NCBI GenBank assembly: GCA_011321845.1
Contig: DROQ01000042.1
Coordinates: 1 to 58,976 of the forward strand
Source: Planctomycetota bacterium
GTDB taxonomy: Bacteria > Planctomycetota > UBA1135 > GCA-002748355
DNA: 58,976 nucleotides
Direction of reading: 5' to 3'
Every line of letters starts with the position of its first letter. Positions within the stretch are counted from its first letter, which is position 1. Positions 10,513-22,781 of this stretch are shown one piece after another. A program made the translations under genes and the position numbers. The notes below the pieces were generated by a model. That model made no database searches. It was not told where the DNA came from and saw only the letters and a program-made list of their open reading frames with translations.

Positions 10513-10762
10513 TCGTTTCCCCTCCCTCCTTCCGCTTTGGGTAGATGAAAGAAACGAGAAGAGAGGAAGCTGTGGAAAATTCCTGGCAGGGGAATTTTAC
10601 TCCCCACTCCCCTTGAGGGATTGGTATACTTTTCCACTCATTCCTTTTGGGCCTCTCTGTCTCCCCGACATCCTTTCGGGGCAGGGTCTTCCGGCCCAGA
10701 ACGTGTCATTTCCTTTTTTCCTTTTTCTTTTCTTTCCCTCTCCAATCGCAAAGGAGTCCCCA
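10513..10762 (+). promoter_or_regulatory. Leader region of first subtilase with candidate extended -10 and inverted repeat
   Basis: There is no gene in this stretch. CTCGTTTC (10512-10519) and GAAACGAG (10551-10558) can pair across a 31-nt loop. AAAATTCC (10576-10583) and GGAATTTT (10591-10598) form a perfect 8-bp inverted repeat with a 7-nt spacer. An extended -10-like TGGTATACT follows at 10622-10630. AAGGAG at 10751-10756 is the ribosome-binding site for the protease ATG at 10763. The promoter call is a guess from one hexamer. Confidence 0.3.
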
Positions 10763-13372
10763 ATGCGTAAATGGTCTTTGACCGTATTCTCGGGCGCATC
10801 CCTTTTATTGGGATCCGTCCTTCCTTCCCAGGGCCAACCGATCGGTCCTATGCCTTCTGATGGAACTGCCACGACCGCTTCGCGGGCATTGGAAGTCCAT
10901 GGGCTTCCAGGCGCCATCAAGGGAACGGAGCGCTGGATCGTTCACTTCAAGAGCCGCAACTTCGATCTCCGGGAATTCCGGAAGGCTGTCCAGTCCAACG
11001 ACGCCGCCAAAGTTTCGGCGGTTGTTCGCGATCTGGAAGCAAAGGTCAAGGCCGACCAGGCCGCCTTTGAAAAAGCCGTCGAGGCCATGGGTGGTGAGAT
11101 GGTCGCCCAGTGGTGGCTGATCAACGGCTGCGCCATCGACATCCCCCCGTCCAAGCTCGCCGAGCTTCGCAAGATGGACAATGTCGAATTCATCGAGCCT
11201 GACCGGGAAACCAATCCTCAAATCAAGACCGCGACCAACGCCAGGAACCACAATGCGGACGCCCTCCAGGCCCGCGGGATCCGTGGATTGGGTGTCACGA
11301 CCGCGATCATGGACACCGGACAGGATGAGAAGATGGGCTCGACCAACCGCCCCCACATCACCTACTACACAGACGGCAACCTCACCAAGCCTTCCCGCCT
11401 GATCGCCAACAAAAAGATCGGCGCCATGCCCGCTGACGATGTTCATGGGCACGGGACGGGCGTGGCGAGCATCGCCGCCGGCGCCAAATGGCGTACTTCG
11501 ACGGCCGACCACGGCCACGCCTATGGAGCCAAGATCGCCGGGTACTCCATCGCCAACAACACGAGGGGAAGCTCGTCCTACACCACGATGACCACCGCCT
11601 GGCAGACGATCGCCGCCGACAAGGTCCGGCTCGGTATTGTCACCGCCAACAACTCCTACTCCGGCAGCCCCAGTCCCCTGAACTCCGTTCAGAAGGCCCT
11701 GGACGCCGCCGTCCTGAACGCCGACATCCTCGTCTGCACCGCCGCCGGAAACAGCGGAAGCAGCACTAGGGTCAGCCAGGTCAACCTGAATGGCCTTTCC
11801 GTCGGCGCGGTCAACGAGAACGTCAAGACCCTGGCTTCCTTCTCCTCGCGCGGCCCCTTCACGGGCGACCGGCAGGTCTTCCCCGACATCGTCGCCAATG
11901 GTGTCTCCACCAACATGGCCCGCAGGAACCTCGAGACCTCGGACTATGTCGCCAGCGGAACTTCCATGGCCTCGCCCCAGGTTTGCGGCGCCGCCACGGT
12001 GATCCGAGCCGCCAACAAGAGCATGAAGGCCGATGAAACCAAGGCCGTCCTCCTCGCTTCCGTCGAAGCGCTCGCCGGAAGGACTGGGGTCAACCAGGTC
12101 AATGGCTATGGGACGGGATACCTCCGGGACGACATCGCCTACGCAACCGCGACCAGCGCGAACAACCATGGCCGCGGCACGCTCACCAAGGCCAGCCCCG
12201 TCTTTAAGCGGGTGATCATTGTCCAAAAGGGCAGGACCTACCAGGTGGCCATTGCGTGGAACCGGCTCAATGTCAACTCCACCACCTACTCCAACCTCAA
12301 CCTCCGGGTCCTCCAGGGAACCACCGTCCTCGGTTCCTCCTCGACCCCCAAGAACACCGAAGAGTTCGTCCGCTTCGCCGCTCCCGCAACCGGACCGGTG
12401 ATCATCGAAGTCAGGGCCGCCAGCCTGGCAGCGACCTCCCAGCCCTTCGGCTGGGCCTACGCCCAGGTCAACGCCAAGATTCCGGGCTCCTACACCGTCT
12501 TCGGTATCGGCTGCAAGGGAACCGGCACCGGGCCCAAATTCTGCGCCAGCCTCAACCCCAACGCCACGGGCAACACCACGACCAGCTGGGCCCAAAACCG
12601 CTGGTTCGTCCATCAGGTCAAGGCCAACTCCAACCTCGTGGTCACCGGATTCGACTTCCTCTGCCGGAGCTTGAGAAGCGCGCAGAACGTCCAGTCCGTT
12701 CTCTTCCTGGCGGCTTCCAACGGCAAGCCGGCAGCCAGCCCGGCCAGGACCGGCATCCTCAAGGTGGGGACAACCTCCAAGTTCTACCGGACGACCTTCT
12801 CCACCCCCATCACCATCGCCGCAGGTAAGGTCTTCTACATCGGGTACAAGACTCCCGCGAACTACAACTTCAAGCCCGAAGCAGGAGCCGGAGCAACGCT
12901 CAAGGGGACCTATTACTGGAACGGCCCGAACTGGAGCGGCCCCTGGTCCCACAGGAAGTTCGCCTGGAAGGTCAACTGCGCCGGCGGTTCTTCCGGAGCC
13001 ATCCCCTTCCTCTCCAACACCGGAGTCCCCACGCTCGGCCAGACCTTCAAGGTCAATCTCACCAGCGCGAGGAAGAACACCGCCGCTGTCCTGATTTTCG
13101 GGACCTCCAAGACCAAGTGGATTGGCCTGAACCTTCCCCTGGACCTCACCTTCCTCGGGGCCAAGGGTTGCTTCCTCCGGGCCTCCATGGACCTCTTCCT
13201 GGTTGGAACGGCAGTGGGCTCCTCGGGATCCTCCTCCATCACGGTTGGCATCCCCAACCTGACTTCCCTGATGGGTGTCCAGTTCCACAACCAGTACTTC
13301 GTCGTCGATCCGCCCGCAAACAGCTTCGGGCTGGTCTTCACCAACGGCGGAACCGGCAAGATCGGGAACTGA
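10763..13372 (+). CDS. Secreted subtilisin-like (S8) serine protease with lineage C-terminal domain
   Basis: ATG 10763 is chosen because AAGGAG lies 6 nt upstream and the product opens with a clear signal peptide (residues 1-24, 'MRKWSLTVFSGASLLLGSVL'). The 869-aa protein then has an I9-like propeptide region (about 50-150, starting 'GTERWIVHFKSRNFDL'). The S8 catalytic domain follows, with D184 ('AIMDTG'), H230 ('GHGTGVASIAAG'), oxyanion N330 ('AAGNSGSS') and S401 ('SGTSMASPQ'). A beta-sandwich P-like region comes next, then a Cys-containing module, and a C-terminal ~120-residue domain with 'LPLDLTFLGAKGC'. It is the first of three paralogues in the window. A strong terminator follows at 13421. 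It likely degrades external protein; the substrate is unknown. Confidence 0.93.
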   Translation: MRKWSLTVFSGASLLLGSVLPSQGQPIGPMPSDGTATTASRALEVHGLPGAIKGTERWIVHFKSRNFDLREFRKAVQSNDAAKVSAVVRDLEAKVKADQAAFEKAVEAMGGEMVAQWWLINGCAIDIPPSKLAELRKMDNVEFIEPDRETNPQIKTATNARNHNADALQARGIRGLGVTTAIMDTGQDEKMGSTNRPHITYYTDGNLTKPSRLIANKKIGAMPADDVHGHGTGVASIAAGAKWRTSTADHGHAYGAKIAGYSIANNTRGSSSYTTMTTAWQTIAADKVRLGIVTANNSYSGSPSPLNSVQKALDAAVLNADILVCTAAGNSGSSTRVSQVNLNGLSVGAVNENVKTLASFSSRGPFTGDRQVFPDIVANGVSTNMARRNLETSDYVASGTSMASPQVCGAATVIRAANKSMKADETKAVLLASVEALAGRTGVNQVNGYGTGYLRDDIAYATATSANNHGRGTLTKASPVFKRVIIVQKGRTYQVAIAWNRLNVNSTTYSNLNLRVLQGTTVLGSSSTPKNTEEFVRFAAPATGPVIIEVRAASLAATSQPFGWAYAQVNAKIPGSYTVFGIGCKGTGTGPKFCASLNPNATGNTTTSWAQNRWFVHQVKANSNLVVTGFDFLCRSLRSAQNVQSVLFLAASNGKPAASPARTGILKVGTTSKFYRTTFSTPITIAAGKVFYIGYKTPANYNFKPEAGAGATLKGTYYWNGPNWSGPWSHRKFAWKVNCAGGSSGAIPFLSNTGVPTLGQTFKVNLTSARKNTAAVLIFGTSKTKWIGLNLPLDLTFLGAKGCFLRASMDLFLVGTAVGSSGSSSITVGIPNLTSLMGVQFHNQYFVVDPPANSFGLVFTNGGTGKIGN

Positions 13373-13420
13373 GTTTCCCGCAAAGCTTTGAAGGTGGGAG
13401 TCTTTCCCTCCTTCAATGAA

Positions 13421-13453
13421 AAGGAGTGGGCCAATGCCCACTCCTTTTTTTTT
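13421..13453 (+). terminator. Rho-independent terminator after first subtilase
   Basis: AAGGAGTGGGC pairs perfectly with GCCCACTCCTT around a CAAT loop, followed by a run of nine Ts (13445-13453). It lies 48 nt after the protease stop and 40 nt before the msrP-like ATG. Confidence 0.9.
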
Positions 13454-13492
13454 CGGTTAGGATCTCTACCTTCCCTCGGAGCAAGAGACGCA

Positions 13493-14482
13493 ATGCACTA
13501 CATCCCCCCCAGGCCGGAATGGCAGGGCAGAGCCCAAGACATCACCGATGAGCAGATCTGGATGAACCGGAGGACCTGGCTCCGCTGGGCCGGACACAGC
13601 CTCTTGGGAGGGGCCCTTCTGGGAAACCTGGAATCTCCTCTCCTGGCTCAGCAGGGAAAAAAGGCGGCGTCCCCCGGGACCCGACCAAGTTCCAGGCCCC
13701 GAACCCGAACCCAAACCCCGTGGAAGAACCCCAAATTCCGGAACGCAGGACGCCCCCTCTCCAAGGAGGAACTGGTCACGACCTGGAACAATTTTTATGA
13801 GTTTTCCCTGCAGAAGGGGGAGGTCCACAAGCTTGTCCAACCCTTCAAGACATCCCCTTGGGCGGTCGAGATCAAAGGACTTCTCAAAAAACCCGGCACC
13901 TATGGAGTCGATGACCTCCAAAAACTGGTCCGCCCCGAAGAGAGGATCTACCGCTTCCGCTGCGTCGAGGCCTGGGCGATGACCGTGCCATGGATCGGAA
14001 TCCCTCTGGGACAGCTTTGTAAAAAGCTGGGCGTCTCGGACAAAGCCCGATACGTCCGCTTCGTCTCCTTTCAACGCCCCAAAGAAGCTCCAGGATTCAA
14101 GGCCTACCCCCACTACCCCTGGCCCTACCATGAGGCCCTGAGAATGGACGAGGCAATGAACGAACTCACCCTCTTGGGGACAGGCATCTATGGAAAGCCT
14201 CTCCCCAAACAAAACGGTGCCCCCATTCGCCTGATCGTCCCCTGGAAATACGGCTTGAAAAACATCAAAAGCATCGTTCGGATCGAATTCCTGGCCAAGC
14301 GCCCCGACACCTTTTGGCATGAGGCCGTCCCCCACGAATACTCCTGGCTTTCCAATGTGGACCCCAGGGTCCCCCATCCCCGTTGGTCCCAAGCCACCGA
14401 AAGGCTGCTGGGCAGTGACCGAAAGGTCCAAACTCTGCCTTTCAATGGATACGGAACCTTTGTTGCAAAACTCTATCAATAG
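13493..14482 (+). CDS. msrP: MsrP/YedY-like molybdopterin-dependent reductase catalytic subunit
   Basis: A periplasmic molybdoenzyme. MsrP reduces methionine sulfoxide in damaged envelope proteins, taking electrons from the haem membrane partner MsrQ. The start is ATG 13493, because upstream codons in this frame run into the terminator of the previous gene. The 329-aa protein has a Tat signal ('NRRTWLRWAGHSLLGGALLG', residues 25-44), and the Mo-ligand cysteine is C157 in 'RFRCVEAWAMTVPW'. Further family blocks are 'RYVRFVSF', 'YPWPYHEALRMDEAM', 'QNGAPIRLIVPWKYGLKN' and the C-terminal 'NVDPRVPHPRWSQATER'. No msrQ is next to it, so the partner must be elsewhere or different. The family assignment is firm; the exact substrate is inferred. 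Confidence 0.88.
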   Translation: MHYIPPRPEWQGRAQDITDEQIWMNRRTWLRWAGHSLLGGALLGNLESPLLAQQGKKAASPGTRPSSRPRTRTQTPWKNPKFRNAGRPLSKEELVTTWNNFYEFSLQKGEVHKLVQPFKTSPWAVEIKGLLKKPGTYGVDDLQKLVRPEERIYRFRCVEAWAMTVPWIGIPLGQLCKKLGVSDKARYVRFVSFQRPKEAPGFKAYPHYPWPYHEALRMDEAMNELTLLGTGIYGKPLPKQNGAPIRLIVPWKYGLKNIKSIVRIEFLAKRPDTFWHEAVPHEYSWLSNVDPRVPHPRWSQATERLLGSDRKVQTLPFNGYGTFVAKLYQ

Positions 14483-14489
14483 ACACCTG

Positions 14490-14880
14490 TACCTGGGACC
14501 ATGGATCCGGGGGAAAGGCATCGCAGTGGCTGTGATCCCGGGGACGAAAATCTGGAAGAATGCCTGGGGCGACCTCATCTTCCTGAACATGGGGCAGAGA
14601 TCGCATTGGCTGTGATTCCAGGGACGAGGATCCTGAAAAACGCCTGGCGCGACCTCATCCTCCCGGACATGGGGAAGACATCGCAAGGGCGGTAATTCCA
14701 GGAACGGGGATCCTGAAAAACGCCTGGGGCGACCTCATCCTCCCGGACATGGGGCAGGCATCGCAAGGGCGGTAATTCCAGGAACGGGGATCCTGAAAAA
14801 CGCCTGGCGCGACCTCATCTTCCTGGACATGGGGCAGGCATCGCAAAGGCGGTGATTCCGGGGAAGAGGAACCTGGGCAC
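14490..14880. repeat. 80-bp tandem repeat array, about five copies
   Basis: The marker 'TCGCA' recurs at 14521, 14601, 14681, 14761 and 14841, an exact 80-bp period. Copies share 'TGATTCC/TAATTCC...GGATCCTGAAAAACGCCTGG', 'CGACCTCATC' and 'GACATGGGGCAG'. The third and fourth copies are almost identical, and the outer ones have drifted. The edges are marked by related ACCTGGG...CCATG...GGATC segments (14491 and 14871). Because 80 is not a multiple of 3, the array is unlikely to be coding. It fills most of the 542-bp gap between the msrP-like gene and the UGA-containing gene; the rest of that gap shows nothing recognisable. Confidence 0.9.
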
Positions 14881-15010: not shown

Positions 15011-15016
15011 AAAGGA
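15011..15016 (+). promoter_or_regulatory. Ribosome-binding site that fixes the start of the UGA-containing gene
   Basis: AAAGGA lies 8 nt before ATG 15025, which opens a classical signal peptide. This supports translation starting upstream of the in-frame UGA rather than at the GTG at 15199. Confidence 0.6.
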
Positions 15017-15024
15017 TCCCCACG

Positions 15025-16014
15025 ATGTGGAAACACCTTCTTAAGCTTGGTGCCCTCGCAGTCGCCCTGGCCTTCATGGGCGCGCCTGCCGGGGCGGTCC
15101 CGCAATGATGCGGAGGCGGAGCCTCTGCACCTCCCTCCTCCGGCGGTGGAGCCGGCGGCGGCGCCGGTGGCGGCCGATCGGGAGGAGGCGGCAGAGGAGT
15201 GGCGTCCAGTTGGACCCGCCTGGAAACGAGCAAAAAACGCCTGCAAATCCGTTGGGACTATCCCGTTCCCATCGGGGAAGAGGTCCTGGACCTAAAAAGC
15301 GTTCTCAAGGAGATCCGAGGAAGGGATCCTCGGCCCTTGATCGTCCTCAGGGACTGCGACTCCTGCAAAGGGAAGGACGACGCCCTGCTCAGCAGGACCC
15401 TCGGGAACGAAAAAACCCTCCTCCTCACCCAATGGTTCCACTGCATCAAACTGGACCGCAGAGTCTTGGAAAAGAGCCACCCCTACCACATCCTCTTCTC
15501 AGGAGAGAAGCCCCCCCACCTTTTCCTCATGAGCTGGGATGGTTCCATTCGGATGGACCTGAATGGCAAACAATCCCAAAAGAAGCTCTGGATGAGTATG
15601 CGAAAAGTCCTGAAGGCCGACTACAAAAAGGATGCCCTGGTCGCCGCCCGCAATTGGCTGCGTATTCTGGACCGCTTCGATATTTTCGATTCCCAGGAAA
15701 AGAATCTCTCCACCCAACTCGACCGACTTCTGGGAAAAAAGGGCAAGGCGAAAAAGATCAAAGCCCTTGAGGCAAAGCTCGCCAAACTGAAAAAGGAGCG
15801 AGAAGCGGCCTTCAAAAAAGAACAGGACCTCATCAACCTGGTTCTCAAACACGCACCCAAGAAGAGGACCGTCGCTGACTTCGATGCCGAATCCGCTGAC
15901 GAGGTCAAGGCCTCGGGGGGAGGAGGCCTGTTGGATAAGATCCGCAAGGGAAAAGGCGAAGCCAAGAACGCTTCCGGAACCAAACCCAAGGGCGCTCTCG
16001 GAACGGGGCACTAA
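15025..16014 (+). CDS. Secreted thioredoxin-like protein with in-frame UGA (candidate selenoprotein or interrupted gene)
   Basis: From ATG 15025 the frame encodes a signal peptide (27 codons, 'MWKHLLKLGALAVALAFMGA', ending PAGAVPQ). Codon 28 is TGA (15106-15108), then TGC (Cys) and a Gly/Ala/Ser/Pro-rich linker. About 300 further codons run in the same frame to the stop at 16012-16014. The downstream part is thioredoxin-like: a strand 'RPLIVLRDCDSC', a later 'QWFHCIKLD', 'PPHLFLMSWDGS' resembling the cis-Pro strand, and a C-terminal coiled coil of about 50 residues. If UGA were decoded as selenocysteine, the mature N-terminus would carry a Sec-Cys pair on a flexible tail. Alternatives are a sequencing error, a nonsense mutation, or restart at GTG 15199, which would give a 271-aa protein without export signal. 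UGA serves as a normal stop in other genes here. Confidence 0.6.
15109..15129 (+). promoter_or_regulatory. Hairpin immediately after the in-frame UGA
   Basis: TGCGGAGGC (15109-15117) pairs with GCCTCTGCA (15121-15129) along nine base pairs, one of them G-U, closing a GGA triloop. It begins at the first base after the UGA codon. Bacterial SECIS elements also lie directly 3' of UGA with a G at the loop start, but their loop is usually 16-37 nt away; here it is 9 nt. A second small hairpin, CTCC/GGAG with loop GGCGGT (15138-15151), would be in the usual range. GC-rich DNA forms such stems easily, so the role is uncertain. Confidence 0.4.
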
Positions 16015-16035: not shown

Positions 16036-16095
16036 GGAAACGCCCCCGGAGTGGAGGAATCCCTTTCCGCGCCGGGGGCGTTTCCCTCGGTTTTT
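16036..16095 (+). terminator. Rho-independent terminator after the UGA-containing gene
   Basis: GGAAACGCCCCCGG (16036-16049) pairs perfectly with CCGGGGGCGTTTCC (16072-16085) across a 22-nt loop, followed by TTTTT at 16091-16095. Its position 21 nt after the stop shows that the long downstream frame is treated as a transcription unit. Confidence 0.8.
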
Positions 16096-16101
16096 CTCGG
16101 C

Positions 16102-16899: not shown

Positions 16900-17073
16900 C
16901 CATTCCTCCAATCTTTGCCCCCCTAAGGGAGCGATCCGCCCGCTTACTTCATCCTCCGGGTTATGGCTATCGGCCCACAATCAAGGGAACCTTTGTACCC
17001 TTTGAACCGTAAGTCACAAAAGCAAACTCTTTTCCACGTTCACTCGGATCCTCCCCAGCCCCAAGGCCCACCA

Positions 17074-19830
17074 ATGGCGCTTCTCAGCCTTCTTCTTCTC
17101 ACACTCTCTCCTCTCCAGAATCCAACCCAAGCGGGAATCCCTTCCAGGCTGCGGTTCCAGGCGGCCCCCTCGGTCCATGGAATCCCGGGGACGGAGAGGG
17201 GCCACGAACGTTGGCTCGTGGTCTTCAAACAACGCTCCTTTGATCTGCGCGCTTTTCGGCTGGCTGTCCAAAAAAAGGACAGCGAAGAAGTGGAAAAAGA
17301 AGTCCAGTCCTTGAGGAAGAAGGCTCTCAGGGATCAGAGCGCCTTTGCCCGCTTTCTCGAAGAGAAGCTCGAGGGGAAGGTCCTTGCACATTTTTGGCTG
17401 GTCAACGCCTGCTCCGTGGAGATCCCCGGATCGATGCTCGGTCGCCTCCGCTCCCATCCCCGAGTCGCTTATATCCACCCGGACCAGATCGTCACCCCTG
17501 TCTTCATCAAGAACTCCACCAACGCAAGGAACCATGCGGTAGACGCCTTGCACCTCAAGGGCATCAAAGGGGCGGGAGCCACGATCGCGATCATGGATAC
17601 AGGATTGGACCTGGACATGAATGGCTCAGGAAGGCCCCATGCGACCTTCTACATCCAAGGGAACCCAAAAAACCGGATGGGAGGAGGCATCAAGGGATCC
17701 CGGCTTCTTGCCGCCAAAGCCATCGGCAAGATGATCGCGGACGACGTGAACAACCATGGGACGGCCGTGGCGGGAATCGCCGCGGGGGAAAAGTGGAACA
17801 GCAACAACAACAGCGATCGTGGACACGCACCTCTCGCTGGGATCGTCAGCTATTCGATCGCAAATGATCGCTCGGGATCCACGGATTTGACAACCATCAC
17901 CAAGGCCTGGCAAGCCATCGCGGCCGACGCCGTCAAATACAAGATCGCCGTAGTCAACAATTCCTATTCCGGCAGCCCAGACCCGACCAATGTCTCCCAG
18001 ATGGCCTTGGACGCCGCTGCCTGGAATGCAGGAGTTCTCCCCGTCTGCGCAGCCGGAAACGGGGGAGCCAGCACAGGAGGAAGCCAATCCGTCGCCAACG
18101 GGCTTGCGGTGGGAGCGACCTCCGCCGACTCCAAACAGGTCGCGGCCTTCTCCTCGAGAGGCCCCCTCTTCGGAGATACGAAACGTTTCTACCCCGACAT
18201 CTGCGCGATCGGTGTCTCCCTGGTCCAACCCCTCCGGGACAACGAAGCTAGCCAATGGATTGCCTCCGGGACTTCCATGGCCGCTCCACAGGTCAGCGGC
18301 GCCGCGACCCTTTTCCGATCCATCCAACCCAGGGCTTCCTTCCTCCTCACCAAGGCAGCGCTCCTGGCAAGCACCGAGGACATCAGCCAGCGGAACGTGG
18401 TCCCCCCCTTCCATGACCGGAACGCCTTCGGCCTCGGATTTCTGCGGGATGACCATCTTCTTCGTCTTGCAAAAGGCGGAGGATTGCTGAAAGACAGCGC
18501 ACTCACTCGGGCCGCCACTTCGGCCCGATTCAACTTCATGGTGACCAAAGGAAGATACTACGCGGCCTGTGTCGCCTGGCCACGAACCAATCTACGTTCC
18601 AAGGCCTGGAGTGATCTCTCCCTCGAAGTGAAAATGGGGACCAAGGTCCTGGGCTCGGGGGACAGCCCGAGGAACCTGTATGAAAAGGTTTCTTTCCGCG
18701 CCCCCTCCACCGGAACCGTCCAGATCTTCGTGCGGGGAAAGAGCCTGGACTCTTCGCCTGTCCCCTTCGGTCTCGCTCTCCTCGAAATGCCCCCACCCTT
18801 TGTGGCTGGTGGAGCAACCCCCTTTGGAGCCGGGTGCAAAGGATCGGGAATCCTCCCCAACCTTGGAAACATCCTCCCCCGAGGATACGGAAACCGCTTT
18901 GGCGGGACGGCCGACACCATTCCCATAGGGTTCAAAACCCTCCGGTACCAACAGGTCTTCGCCCTATCGCAAACGCCCAAAGATTTTACGACATCGGGGT
19001 TGGCATTCCGCCACGACGACAAGATCTTCGCCCCCCTCTCCAAGGAATGGATCGAGATCACCATCAAACTCGGTTACGCAGCGACCAGCCCGAAAACGAT
19101 CAGTCGCAGCTTCGCCGTGAACCAATTCGGACCTCAGTCCACCCTCGTCGCAAGGAGGAGAGTCAACCTCCCAAGCATCAAAGGACGCAACCCCTCGCCT
19201 TCCAACTTTCTCCTGCAGATCCCCTTCGACCGTAGCTTTCTCTATCAGAGCTCGCGAAAAAAGGGGTTATTGCTCGACCTTACCAAGCACACCCAGTCCA
19301 AGAGCCTCCTGAGCTTTTACACCGACTCGATCTTCGATCGGAAGACCTTCCCCACTTCCAGGGTTTTCAGCATCCGTCCCCAGGACAGAATGGGGTTTAC
19401 GACTCTGGGTTATGGGAGCGTCGTTGCGTTTATGAAACAGGGTACTTCGGGGGCAGTCCCCATTCTCGAGAACGAAGGAGCGCCCGAAATTGGCAGGAGC
19501 TATGACCTGAGCCTGTCACGAGCAAACAGCAACTCGCCGGCGGTTTTTTTCTTGGGAAACTCGAAAACGAAATTCCAGACGATCACCCTCCCCTTGGATT
19601 TGAGCCCCTTGGGCATGACCGGATGCAAACTGCACACAAACATCCTTTGGGTCCAGGGGATTCGCACAGACTTCAAAGGGAATGGAATCTTAAGGACCAC
19701 CCTCCCGAACCTTCGCAGCCTCATTGGAGTCCGCCTCTACCACCAGGCAGCCATCTATGACCCACCCGGAAATCCATTCGGGCTTGTACTCAGCAACGCG
19801 CTGCAAGTTCTCGTCGGAGGGCAGCCCTAA
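17074..19830 (+). CDS. Secreted subtilisin-like (S8) serine protease, second paralogue
   Basis: ATG 17074 has AAGG 7 nt upstream and opens a signal peptide ('MALLSLLLLTLSPLQNPTQA'). The 918-aa protein has a propeptide ('ERWLVVFKQRSFDLRAF', from about 46) and the S8 triad D175 ('AIMDTGLD'), H228 ('NHGTAVAGIAAG') and S401 ('SGTSMAAPQ'), with oxyanion N329. After the catalytic domain come a beta-sandwich region, a long unique region of about 200 residues absent from the first protease, and the shared C-terminal domain ('LPLDLSPLGMTGC'). It matches the third protease in length and in the extra region, so these two are the closer pair. No obvious terminator separates them. Confidence 0.92.
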   Translation: MALLSLLLLTLSPLQNPTQAGIPSRLRFQAAPSVHGIPGTERGHERWLVVFKQRSFDLRAFRLAVQKKDSEEVEKEVQSLRKKALRDQSAFARFLEEKLEGKVLAHFWLVNACSVEIPGSMLGRLRSHPRVAYIHPDQIVTPVFIKNSTNARNHAVDALHLKGIKGAGATIAIMDTGLDLDMNGSGRPHATFYIQGNPKNRMGGGIKGSRLLAAKAIGKMIADDVNNHGTAVAGIAAGEKWNSNNNSDRGHAPLAGIVSYSIANDRSGSTDLTTITKAWQAIAADAVKYKIAVVNNSYSGSPDPTNVSQMALDAAAWNAGVLPVCAAGNGGASTGGSQSVANGLAVGATSADSKQVAAFSSRGPLFGDTKRFYPDICAIGVSLVQPLRDNEASQWIASGTSMAAPQVSGAATLFRSIQPRASFLLTKAALLASTEDISQRNVVPPFHDRNAFGLGFLRDDHLLRLAKGGGLLKDSALTRAATSARFNFMVTKGRYYAACVAWPRTNLRSKAWSDLSLEVKMGTKVLGSGDSPRNLYEKVSFRAPSTGTVQIFVRGKSLDSSPVPFGLALLEMPPPFVAGGATPFGAGCKGSGILPNLGNILPRGYGNRFGGTADTIPIGFKTLRYQQVFALSQTPKDFTTSGLAFRHDDKIFAPLSKEWIEITIKLGYAATSPKTISRSFAVNQFGPQSTLVARRRVNLPSIKGRNPSPSNFLLQIPFDRSFLYQSSRKKGLLLDLTKHTQSKSLLSFYTDSIFDRKTFPTSRVFSIRPQDRMGFTTLGYGSVVAFMKQGTSGAVPILENEGAPEIGRSYDLSLSRANSNSPAVFFLGNSKTKFQTITLPLDLSPLGMTGCKLHTNILWVQGIRTDFKGNGILRTTLPNLRSLIGVRLYHQAAIYDPPGNPFGLVLSNALQVLVGGQP

Positions 19831-19923
19831 ATCCAAACGAAGAAGACCGCCCCCCTATCCAGGACGGAGTTTTCGGAGTGGAGGCGAAGCGGAGCAGGCG
19901 CAAACCGCGGGCAAGAAGGCGCA

Positions 19924-19942
19924 TGTCGGAATTATTCCGACA
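19924..19942. promoter_or_regulatory. Near-perfect palindrome upstream of third subtilase
   Basis: TGTCGGAATTATTCCGACA is an 8-bp inverted repeat with a TTA centre, 83 nt before the ATG of the third protease. No T-run follows, so it is more like an operator than a terminator. No equivalent copy is seen in front of the other two proteases. Confidence 0.35.
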
Positions 19943-20024
19943 AAGCATTCCCCCTCTCCCTCGGGGCCAAGGGTATCATGATCCCTTGCCCCTTTCCGAG
20001 AGGACCCCCTTTTTGGAGGATTTC

Positions 20025-22781
20025 ATGTTCATCGGATCCACTCTCCTTTTTTCCCTTCTTCTTTTCCCCTCCGCTCTTCCACCCCAAGAGACAGCCCCAC
20101 CCATCGGACCGGTCGCGATCCCCGCCAAACAGGCCCACGGACTCCCCGGCAGACTCCCTGGGACAGAACGTTGGCTGGTTGTCTTCAAGAACCGAAGCTT
20201 CGATTTGAGTGAGTTTCGTGCCGCCGTCAAGACAGGGGACCCTGTCCTCGTAGACAAGATCGTCAAAAAGCTCGAAACCAGAGTCCGCGAGGACCAAAAA
20301 GCATTCGCGACCTTCGTGGAAAACAAGCTACACGGGGATGTGGTAGCCCAGTTCTGGCTCGTCAACGCTTGTTCGGTCGAAGTTCCCTTCAAGAACCTTC
20401 GAGCGATCCAAACCCATCCCAATGTGGCCTACATCCATCCCGACCAGGAGGTTCGGCCGGTCATCCTTACCGCCACCAATTCCAAGAACCACTCGGCCGA
20501 CTCGGTCCAAGCCCTCGGGATCAAGGGAAAAGGAGTCTCGGTAGCCATCATGGACACAGGATGCGATGTGAACATGAACGGGTCGGGTCGTCCCCATTCC
20601 ACTTTTTATGTCAATGGTGACATCAACAACAAGACCGGAGGCGGAATCAGTGGGTCGCGCCTCCTCGCAGCCAAGGCCCTGGGGAAAATGGGAGCGGACG
20701 ATGTCCACAACCATGGAACCGCGGTAGCGGGAATCGCGGCCGGAGAGAAGTGGAACAAAAAATCCAACAGTGACCGTGGACACGCCCCCTTGGCCGGAAT
20801 CGTGAGCTACTCCATCGCCAACAGTCGGGGAGGGAGTTCGGACTTCACGACCATCTCCAAGGCCTGGCAAGCCATCGCCGCTGACGCGGTCAAATATAAA
20901 ATCGTCGCCGCCAACAACTCGTATTCCGGGAGCCCGGATCCCACCAATGTCTCCCAGATGGCCTTGGACGCGGCAGCTTTGAACGCGGGGGTTCTCCCCG
21001 TCTGCGCCGCCGGCAATTCGGGTTCCAGCACTCGGGTCAGCCAGTCGGTCGCGAATGGCCTGGCCGTCGGGGCGACAGTCAAAGACACAAGAGCGATGGC
21101 CTCATTCTCCTCCCGGGGTCCTCTTAGCGGAGATCCGCAGCGATTCTATCCGGATCTCTGCGCAGTGGGTGTCAACCTGGTGCAGCCCCTGCGGGACGTC
21201 GAAGGCAGCCAGTGGATCGCTTCCGGGACGTCGATGGCTTCTCCGGAAGTCTGCGGGGCCGCAGCCCTCTTCCGCTCCGTGAATACCAAAGCCTCCAACC
21301 TCCTGACCAAGGCGGCCATCCTCACGACGACCGAGGATGTGAGCAAAAAGAACCCCAATCCTCCCTACAACACTCGAAACGCTTACGGCGTCGGATTCCT
21401 CCGGGACGACAAACTCATCAGCCTGGCTCAAGGCAACGGCCTCTTGAAGGAAGGAGTCATGACTCCGACTTCCAAGGTCTTCTCCTACACCTTCATCGCG
21501 AAGAAAGGGAAGGCTTATGCCGCTACCGTCACATGGCATCGCTCCAAGCTCAAGGTCAAGACCTGGAGCGATCTCAAACTTGAAGCAAAGAGTGGCAGCA
21601 AGGTCCTCGCCATAAGCGATACTCCCCGCAACCTCTACGAAAAAGTCGTGTTCCTTGCCCAGCAGACCGGGCCGATCACCCTCGTAGTCACAGGCAAGTC
21701 TTTGGATGCGGCCAAGGTCCCCTTCGCCCTCGCAGAGGCCGAGACCCCCGCTCCCTTCATCGATGGCGCTGTCACGGTGTTCGGAAAGGGCTGCCCCGGG
21801 ACCGCAAAACTTCCTCTGACCGTCCCCAATACCTATATCAATAAGTTCGGAGGGAGCACCGACAGTATGCCCCTGGGCTTTTTGAACCACCATCTCATGG
21901 AGATCTTCGACGCCTCCAGGACCCCAAGCAATTTCACCGCCACAGCCCTGAGATTCCGGGGCACGACCATCTGGAGGGCGGCAAAGAATTACTGGGTCGA
22001 GCTGGAGGTCAAGATGGGGCTGTCAAAGAACTCTCCGGCCCTGATCTCTTCGAACTTTGCCGCCAACATCGACGGCAGCCTTGTGACGGTCATCAAAAAG
22101 CGGAAAATCAATCTCCCCGATGTCACAGGGCCCAATTCCTCTCCCTTTGTCTGGGGAGTGAGGATCCCTCTCGATCAGCCTTACACGCATACCGCCAAGG
22201 CCGGGAAACATCTTCTCGTGGATTTCGTCCGTTCCAACTCTTCAGCGGGCAGTTTCCCCGCCGATTACTTCTCGGACGCTGCCAACGACAAGACCGGCAA
22301 ATCTCTTTCGAGAGTCTGGGCTCTTTCCCTGACCGCAACCTCCGGATCTACGGATGTCGGCTATGGGACCATCCTTGGCTTTGACACGACGGGGGCCCCG
22401 AACATCTCCCCCGAACTCTCGAGCAAGTCCTCCCCGGAGATCGGACTTCCTCTCAAACTCGACTTCGCCCTCGCGAGAAGCCAGGCTCCCGTCATCCTCG
22501 CGATGAGCCTTTCCAACAGCAAGTGGAACGGCGTCCCCCTTCCTCTCGATCTGGGTCCTTTCGGGGCGAAGGGCTGTAAACTTCTTGTGGGCCTTGACCT
22601 CACCTTCGTGACCGCGGCGAGCAAAACGGGATCGGGCTCCTTCACCTTTCCCGTTCCCAAGGACAGGAGTTTGATCCAACTCAACACCTACTTCCAAAGC
22701 CTCGTCCTGGATCCCGGGGCGAACAACCTGGGCTTATCCTTCACCAACGGACTCAACGCCCGGTTCGGGGGACAGCCATAA
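20025..22781 (+). CDS. Secreted subtilisin-like (S8) serine protease, third paralogue
   Basis: The start is ATG 20025, with TGGAGGA 4 nt upstream and a signal peptide ('MFIGSTLLFSLLLFPSALPP'). The product is 918 aa, the same length as its upstream neighbour, and close to it along the whole chain. The propeptide starts near 'GTERWLVVFKNRSFDL'. The catalytic residues are D177 ('AIMDTGCD'), H230 ('NHGTAVAGIAAG') and S403 ('SGTSMASPE'), with oxyanion N331. A C-terminal Cys-containing module ('FGKGCPGT') leads to the shared terminal domain ('LPLDLGPFGAKGC'). The tandem arrangement points to local duplication followed by divergence. All three copies keep the full triad, so all are likely active. 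Confidence 0.92.
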   Translation: MFIGSTLLFSLLLFPSALPPQETAPPIGPVAIPAKQAHGLPGRLPGTERWLVVFKNRSFDLSEFRAAVKTGDPVLVDKIVKKLETRVREDQKAFATFVENKLHGDVVAQFWLVNACSVEVPFKNLRAIQTHPNVAYIHPDQEVRPVILTATNSKNHSADSVQALGIKGKGVSVAIMDTGCDVNMNGSGRPHSTFYVNGDINNKTGGGISGSRLLAAKALGKMGADDVHNHGTAVAGIAAGEKWNKKSNSDRGHAPLAGIVSYSIANSRGGSSDFTTISKAWQAIAADAVKYKIVAANNSYSGSPDPTNVSQMALDAAALNAGVLPVCAAGNSGSSTRVSQSVANGLAVGATVKDTRAMASFSSRGPLSGDPQRFYPDLCAVGVNLVQPLRDVEGSQWIASGTSMASPEVCGAAALFRSVNTKASNLLTKAAILTTTEDVSKKNPNPPYNTRNAYGVGFLRDDKLISLAQGNGLLKEGVMTPTSKVFSYTFIAKKGKAYAATVTWHRSKLKVKTWSDLKLEAKSGSKVLAISDTPRNLYEKVVFLAQQTGPITLVVTGKSLDAAKVPFALAEAETPAPFIDGAVTVFGKGCPGTAKLPLTVPNTYINKFGGSTDSMPLGFLNHHLMEIFDASRTPSNFTATALRFRGTTIWRAAKNYWVELEVKMGLSKNSPALISSNFAANIDGSLVTVIKKRKINLPDVTGPNSSPFVWGVRIPLDQPYTHTAKAGKHLLVDFVRSNSSAGSFPADYFSDAANDKTGKSLSRVWALSLTATSGSTDVGYGTILGFDTTGAPNISPELSSKSSPEIGLPLKLDFALARSQAPVILAMSLSNSKWNGVPLPLDLGPFGAKGCKLLVGLDLTFVTAASKTGSGSFTFPVPKDRSLIQLNTYFQSLVLDPGANNLGLSFTNGLNARFGGQP

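Follow-up and report, generated by a model that had tools for sequence, protein, structure and literature searches.

The window analyzed here is a stretch of 58,976 nucleotides from a Planctomycetota MAG (G000; 4.16 Mb, 268 contigs, 92.6% complete). Its forward strand carries a gene (15025-16014) in which an in-frame UGA directly follows the signal peptide. The ATG start codon at 15025 lies 8 nt downstream of a ribosome-binding site (AAAGGA, 15011-15016) and opens a signal peptide of 27 codons (MWKHLLKLGALAVALAFMGAPAGAVPQ, 15025-15105), whose end, ...GAPAGA-VPQ, is of the kind also found in relatives. The UGA follows as codon 28 (15106-15108), putatively read as selenocysteine (Sec) on the basis of the UGA/Cys variation in relatives and the Sec machinery of the genome. 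It is followed by TGC, which encodes Cys29, the second residue of a putative Sec-Cys dyad (15109-15111), and by 300 in-frame codons up to the TAA stop (16012-16014). Behind the gene lies a probable terminator (16039-16098), an inverted repeat (16039-16049 and 16072-16082, 16039-16082 in all) with a subsequent T run. The coordinates given in a preliminary description of this locus, from the ribosome-binding site to the approximately 300 codons behind the UGA, were all correct, and the terminator reported there is present.

Readthrough of the UGA gives a 329-residue protein composed of the signal peptide, Sec28, Cys29, a Gly-rich arm (residues 30-60, 15112-15204), a core with a CDSC motif (residues 61-200, 15205-15624), and a helical C-terminus with a helical hairpin predicted as a coiled coil (residues 204-270, 15634-15834). 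The CDSC motif (CxxC; Cys111-Cys114, 15355-15366) has counterparts in 119 of 133 relatives and is nearly invariant in alignments. With cleavage placed at the AxA site in GAPAGA-VPQ, the mature protein would have Sec at about its fourth position. On inspection, endings such as AVPQU, LPGU, and SGGU fit no lipobox, and the idea that the first Cys/Sec belongs to one was dropped.

The upstream neighbor encodes the catalytic subunit of MsrP, a periplasmic methionine sulfoxide reductase (13388-14482, forward strand), and a convergent uppP lies on the other side. The MsrP-like gene is possibly a functional neighbor of the selenoprotein gene; co-transcription of the two is doubtful because a 540-bp gap with a tandem array (14519-14875; ~4.5 copies of an 80-bp unit, 87% matches) intervenes. 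Three large genes with a subtilase domain (Peptidase_S8; 10613-13372, 16963-19830, and 19878-22781) flank the selenoprotein gene, two of them with an Inhibitor_I9-like stretch, and Peptidase_S8-related genes were also observed near the relatives L217 and L220. An exported protein of ~410 residues is encoded directly downstream and on the same strand in 40 of the 64 relatives with enough sequence (including L221, L223, L224, L225, L226, L227, L234, and L235); the window gene itself does not adjoin such a gene. This protein has no Pfam or PDB match and contains a conserved LPxWxxEGLAHWYARRxDP-like stretch. One member weakly resembles Peptidase_MA_2 (E 0.13), and the protein possibly has a degenerate peptidase-MA fold.

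The preliminary description had counted the lack of sel genes in the window against Sec. None is indeed present there, which is no argument against Sec because they are located on other contigs of G000. selA (C47:4518-5864), selB (on C34), and tRNA-Sec (on C254) all scored above the cut-off, and ARAGORN also calls the tRNA-SeC. selD (L236, C47:3469-4389) adjoins selA and is a selenoprotein gene too: it has a single in-frame TGA, at GCAGUAAK, and a hairpin loop at about +21 of this UGA. SelA, SelB, SelD, and tRNA-Sec, the equipment by which a selenoprotein-producing organism is recognized, are thus all encoded in this genome. Within the order, selA was found in 142 of 154 genomes, and co-occurrence of the UGA form with selA was uninformative as a test because nearly every genome has selA. 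Elsewhere in the phylum, selA was found in 26 of the 29 genomes with distant or f47 members; the lack of a selA match in the remaining three (G232, G353, and G296) proves nothing because all are incomplete drafts.

Relatives of the window gene are present in 104 of the 154 genomes of the order, and the site was counted, from parsed tables plus inspection, in 133 distinct genes that were retrieved and parsed. UGA occupies the end of the signal peptide in 112 of these, as UGA-UGA (Sec-Sec) in 66, UGA-Cys (Sec-Cys) in 34, Cys-UGA in 5, and a single UGA without adjacent Cys in 7; the position of Cys29 would accordingly be Sec in 66 relatives and is Cys in 34. The site is Cys-only, typically AQCPP, in 16 genes, has neither UGA nor Cys in 4, and is truncated in 1. 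Trp was found at the UGA position in none of the 133 genes, so the comparison of homologues proposed in the preliminary description came out on the side of Sec, with UGA kept or replaced by Cys. On a quick tree of the core, UGA-bearing and Cys-only forms must have replaced one another at least 5 times, and UGA-UGA and UGA-Cys at least 10 times; such exchange of Sec and Cys among homologues is one of the marks of a selenoprotein. The UGA gene L082 (AQU) nests within Cys-only genes on the tree. In G151, this gene neighbors a paralog with AQC, an apparent recent Cys/Sec exchange. Examples of the tandem UGA are L031, L061, and L089; a single SECIS-type hairpin lies 3' of the second UGA in the 66 relatives with this form. 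A single-protein search of genome contigs matched the sister genome alone, and a plasmid search gave no match to the family.

The published bSECIS model places the loop 16-37 nt after the UGA (PMC13188914). Its rules are satisfied by 82 of the 112 UGA genes (73%), compared with 21% in synonymous-codon shuffles of the same genes, 12% in a control window further along the arm, and 0 of 11 Cys-only homologues; for the family as a whole, the loop therefore lies where the model expects it. Loop starts concentrate at +18 to +22, and AGTT (an AGUU loop) is rare except at precisely +18 or +21, where 47 genes have it. Around this loop, covariation is seen across 37 distinct stems. Pairing at pairs 2-7 amounts to 85% vs. 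65% in shuffles, of which 0 of 1000 reached the observed value; the shuffles do not remove the relatedness of the sequences, but slid registers, which retain it, give 45-64%. The SECIS-type hairpin anticipated in the preliminary description is thus present in the family as a covarying one. Folding energy of the whole segment around the site was rejected as a SECIS test, since MFE z-scores fail to separate the site from the control in this GC-rich arm, whereas positioned hairpins do separate them.

In the window gene, a candidate SECIS with atypically short spacing directly follows the UGA, namely a 9-bp hairpin with one G-U (TGCGGAGGC-GGA-GCCTCTGCA, 15109-15129, forward strand; -14.3 kcal/mol). 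It folds as previously described; taken by itself, its energy is ordinary for such a composition (z -1.2). The GGA loop starts at +9 nt, short of the 16-37 nt range of the model; that the loop is nearer to the UGA than in usual SECIS elements, as had been remarked, holds for the window gene and for those most closely related to it. An identical arrangement is found in the same-genus relative, and the loop lies at +12 in L025 and L026. The only hairpin of the window gene that conforms to the model is a weak SECIS-like alternative within the published spacing (15142-15157, forward strand; loop GGTGGA at +36, 5 bp, -9.3 kcal/mol), and no hairpin beyond those of shuffles was found 16-24 nt after the UGA. 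All 7 hairpin codons (7/7) are identical between the two same-genus genes, compared with 46% of comparable codons elsewhere (p 0.0046, valid only for the hairpin stretch as specified beforehand). Because these codons are unchanged, the hairpin at 15109-15129 is probably the functional element, with unusual spacing. An identical run of 8 codons across the UGA was rejected as exceptional, since 2913 of 10000 shuffles match it when it is placed anywhere.

AlphaFold2 modeling of the window protein with 78 relatives gave a pLDDT of 81, with the core and the helical hairpin confident and the arm disordered (pLDDT <50 over most of residues 30-57), consistent with a flexible arm; the core alone gave a pLDDT of 84. 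Thioredoxin-fold proteins were the best Foldseek class in both searches (3fk8 disulfide isomerase, ERp18 [1sen], DsbD gamma, and AGR2). The best match was 3fk8 (prob 0.98, E 0.008), with no better fold match and modest E-values throughout, and it was also the sole, weak sequence match (E 0.18). The earlier assignment as thioredoxin-like is therefore borne out by the predicted structure, which supports a thioredoxin-like core of the DsbD-gamma/ERp18/AGR2 type, but not by any sequence model, as no thioredoxin model matched the family in Pfam or among the NCBIfam matches listed.

Phylum-wide relatives were gathered by single-protein search. Members in another class (f47) have SQUCP, GQUCP, and AQUCP at the site, and the families f15, f21, f27, f63, and f71 have a Sec/Cys element directly after the signal peptide (GGUCGGGG, AGUCPRS, CGUGGG, GGCUGRSS, GACUGAS, and AQCUGRG) with a core that lacks the CxxC. 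Two distant genes sampled (L203 and L208) have neither. Within the order, R-[EDQ]-C-x-x-C is absent from 14 of the 133 genes, 8 of which retain UGA-Cys or UGA. Because Sec/Cys is retained in homologues that lost the CxxC, the Sec/Cys element, and not the CxxC, would be the functional center. The same retention makes the putative Sec arm the best-conserved part of the family.

An alternative reading of the UGA invokes a sequencing error, a pseudogene, or insertion of Trp by readthrough or a changed genetic code. The assembly is indeed a fragmented MAG, and the SECIS spacing of the window gene is atypical. However, the same UGA is shared with an independently assembled genome of the same genus and with 110 other genes, Trp never occupies the site, and comparison with the same-genus relative indicates purifying selection 3' of the UGA (dN 0.086, synonymous sites near saturation), an in-frame UGA with conserved coding sequence behind it being itself a mark of a selenoprotein gene. 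Within the window, TGA also serves as an ordinary stop, ending 9 of 24 long ORFs, and therefore a changed code is not implied. We regard error, pseudogene, and Trp as extremely improbable here, and for the family this explanation is refuted. The Sec interpretation made in the preliminary description is supported by the machinery, the UGA/Cys exchange, and the covariation of the family SECIS. Judging from this evidence, we have hardly any doubt that the family is decoded with Sec and very little doubt that the window gene contains it. The comparative evidence shows, at the level of predicted proteins, Sec decoding, N-terminal placement, and interchange of Sec-Sec, Sec-Cys, Cys-Sec, and Cys in the family. 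Putting the recycling step described below aside, the account of an exported Sec dyad as a whole is highly probable. It is also fairly probable that the family is phylum-wide and exported in Planctomycetota with a Sec-Sec/Sec-Cys dyad at the mature N-terminus as its ancestral and best-conserved feature, that UGA-UGA, present in half the genes, is decoded under one SECIS, and that the clade of the window gene uses a SECIS loop at ~9-12 nt.

SelB, selenocysteinyl-tRNA, and the hairpin 3' of the UGA would insert Sec at codon 28, and signal peptidase would cut near AGA-VPQ, leaving Sec-Cys no more than about four residues from the N-terminus of the mature protein. The dyad would then sit on the flexible Gly-rich arm, ahead of the DsbD-gamma-like thioredoxin domain with its CxxC and the C-terminal helical hairpin, and, in the periplasm or cell envelope, may be the reactive center of the protein. 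It could attack an oxidized thiol, a peroxide, or another electrophile to form a selenenylsulfide or diselenide, which the CxxC of the protein's own thioredoxin domain, or a partner protein in members without CxxC, would re-reduce. On balance, we slightly favor such a redox relay, in which the DsbD-gamma-like CxxC domain regenerates the Sec dyad at the N-terminus. Its main rival is that the dyad binds a soft metal or metalloid (Hg, Cu, Cd, or As) in the envelope, with the thioredoxin-like domain as a scaffold or release device and not a recycler. A free N-terminus with Sec and Cys side by side as ligands is suited to this, the dyad is retained where the CxxC was lost, and several known CU selenoproteins are metal-linked (PMC13188914). 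On the other hand, the CxxC is kept in 119 of 133 genes, the conserved neighbors observed are no metal-resistance genes, and 7 genes have one Sec without an adjacent Cys, so that we consider metal binding rather unlikely. The UGA might also act as a selenium switch or sensor, with the full protein made with selenium and a 27-residue signal peptide without it; a stop at codon 28 yields nothing functional, and so early a UGA is all-or-none. An early UGA would have the same effect in any selenoprotein, however, no regulatory element was found at the window gene, and Cys-only homologues have no UGA, which makes such a role improbable.

Selenoproteins are missed by gene callers because the UGA looks like a stop, and here an exported family was hidden in >100 genomes. 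For most members, annotation would begin at an internal start codon and lose both the signal peptide and the putative active center. With UGA-UGA present in 66 genes, the way in which SelB and a single SECIS hairpin serve two successive Sec codons becomes testable, and the clade of the window gene offers a test of the minimum distance between hairpin and UGA.

A 2026 review tabulated 119 selenoprotein families with their motifs (PMC13188914). None of these has an adjacent Sec-Sec (UU) motif, and none is described directly after a signal peptide; the terms "signal peptide" and "secreted" are absent from the text (PMC13188914). In the known CU, UxxC, and UxxU selenoproteins, as in the Planctomycetota family, Sec shares a redox motif with Cys or with another Sec, but neither an adjacent UU nor a site right behind the signal peptide is listed for them. 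The VPGUxxT family (NF041383, OS_HP5; PMC13188914) is also thioredoxin-like, and the VPGU in its name is close to the endings LPGUUT and VPGU seen in some members here; it is set apart by its model and its description, which lists a single Sec instead of a Sec-Sec/Sec-Cys dyad. The NF041383 model did not match any of 10 members with E-values up to 10 admitted and was not among the matches listed for 78 members (25 of 75 families). No NCBIfam selenoprotein model was above the curated cut-off among those listed matches, and none matched the 10 members at E up to 10. The preliminary description knew of no described selenoprotein family with this arrangement; no Pfam model, no selenoprotein model among the NCBIfam matches listed, and none of the 119 reviewed families corresponds to it. 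We found no description of the family in the open-license literature; it may have been described earlier elsewhere.

DsbD gamma, ERp18/AGR2, and 3fk8 are alike in predicted core fold and CxxC position, while the Planctomycetota family adds the N-terminal Sec arm and the C-terminal helical hairpin and has no significant sequence similarity to them. Mammalian thioredoxin reductase carries a C-terminal Gly-Cys-Sec-Gly arm, a flexible segment that sets a Sec-Cys pair next to a dithiol center. The protein described here would work in a like manner, but its arm is N-terminal, it is exported, and it is no flavoprotein; we do not claim homology. Because no UU motif is present among the 119 families (PMC13188914) and NF041383 is unmatched, this is a new selenoprotein family within a known kind, the selenoproteins, with an unusual placement of Sec and a tandem UGA.
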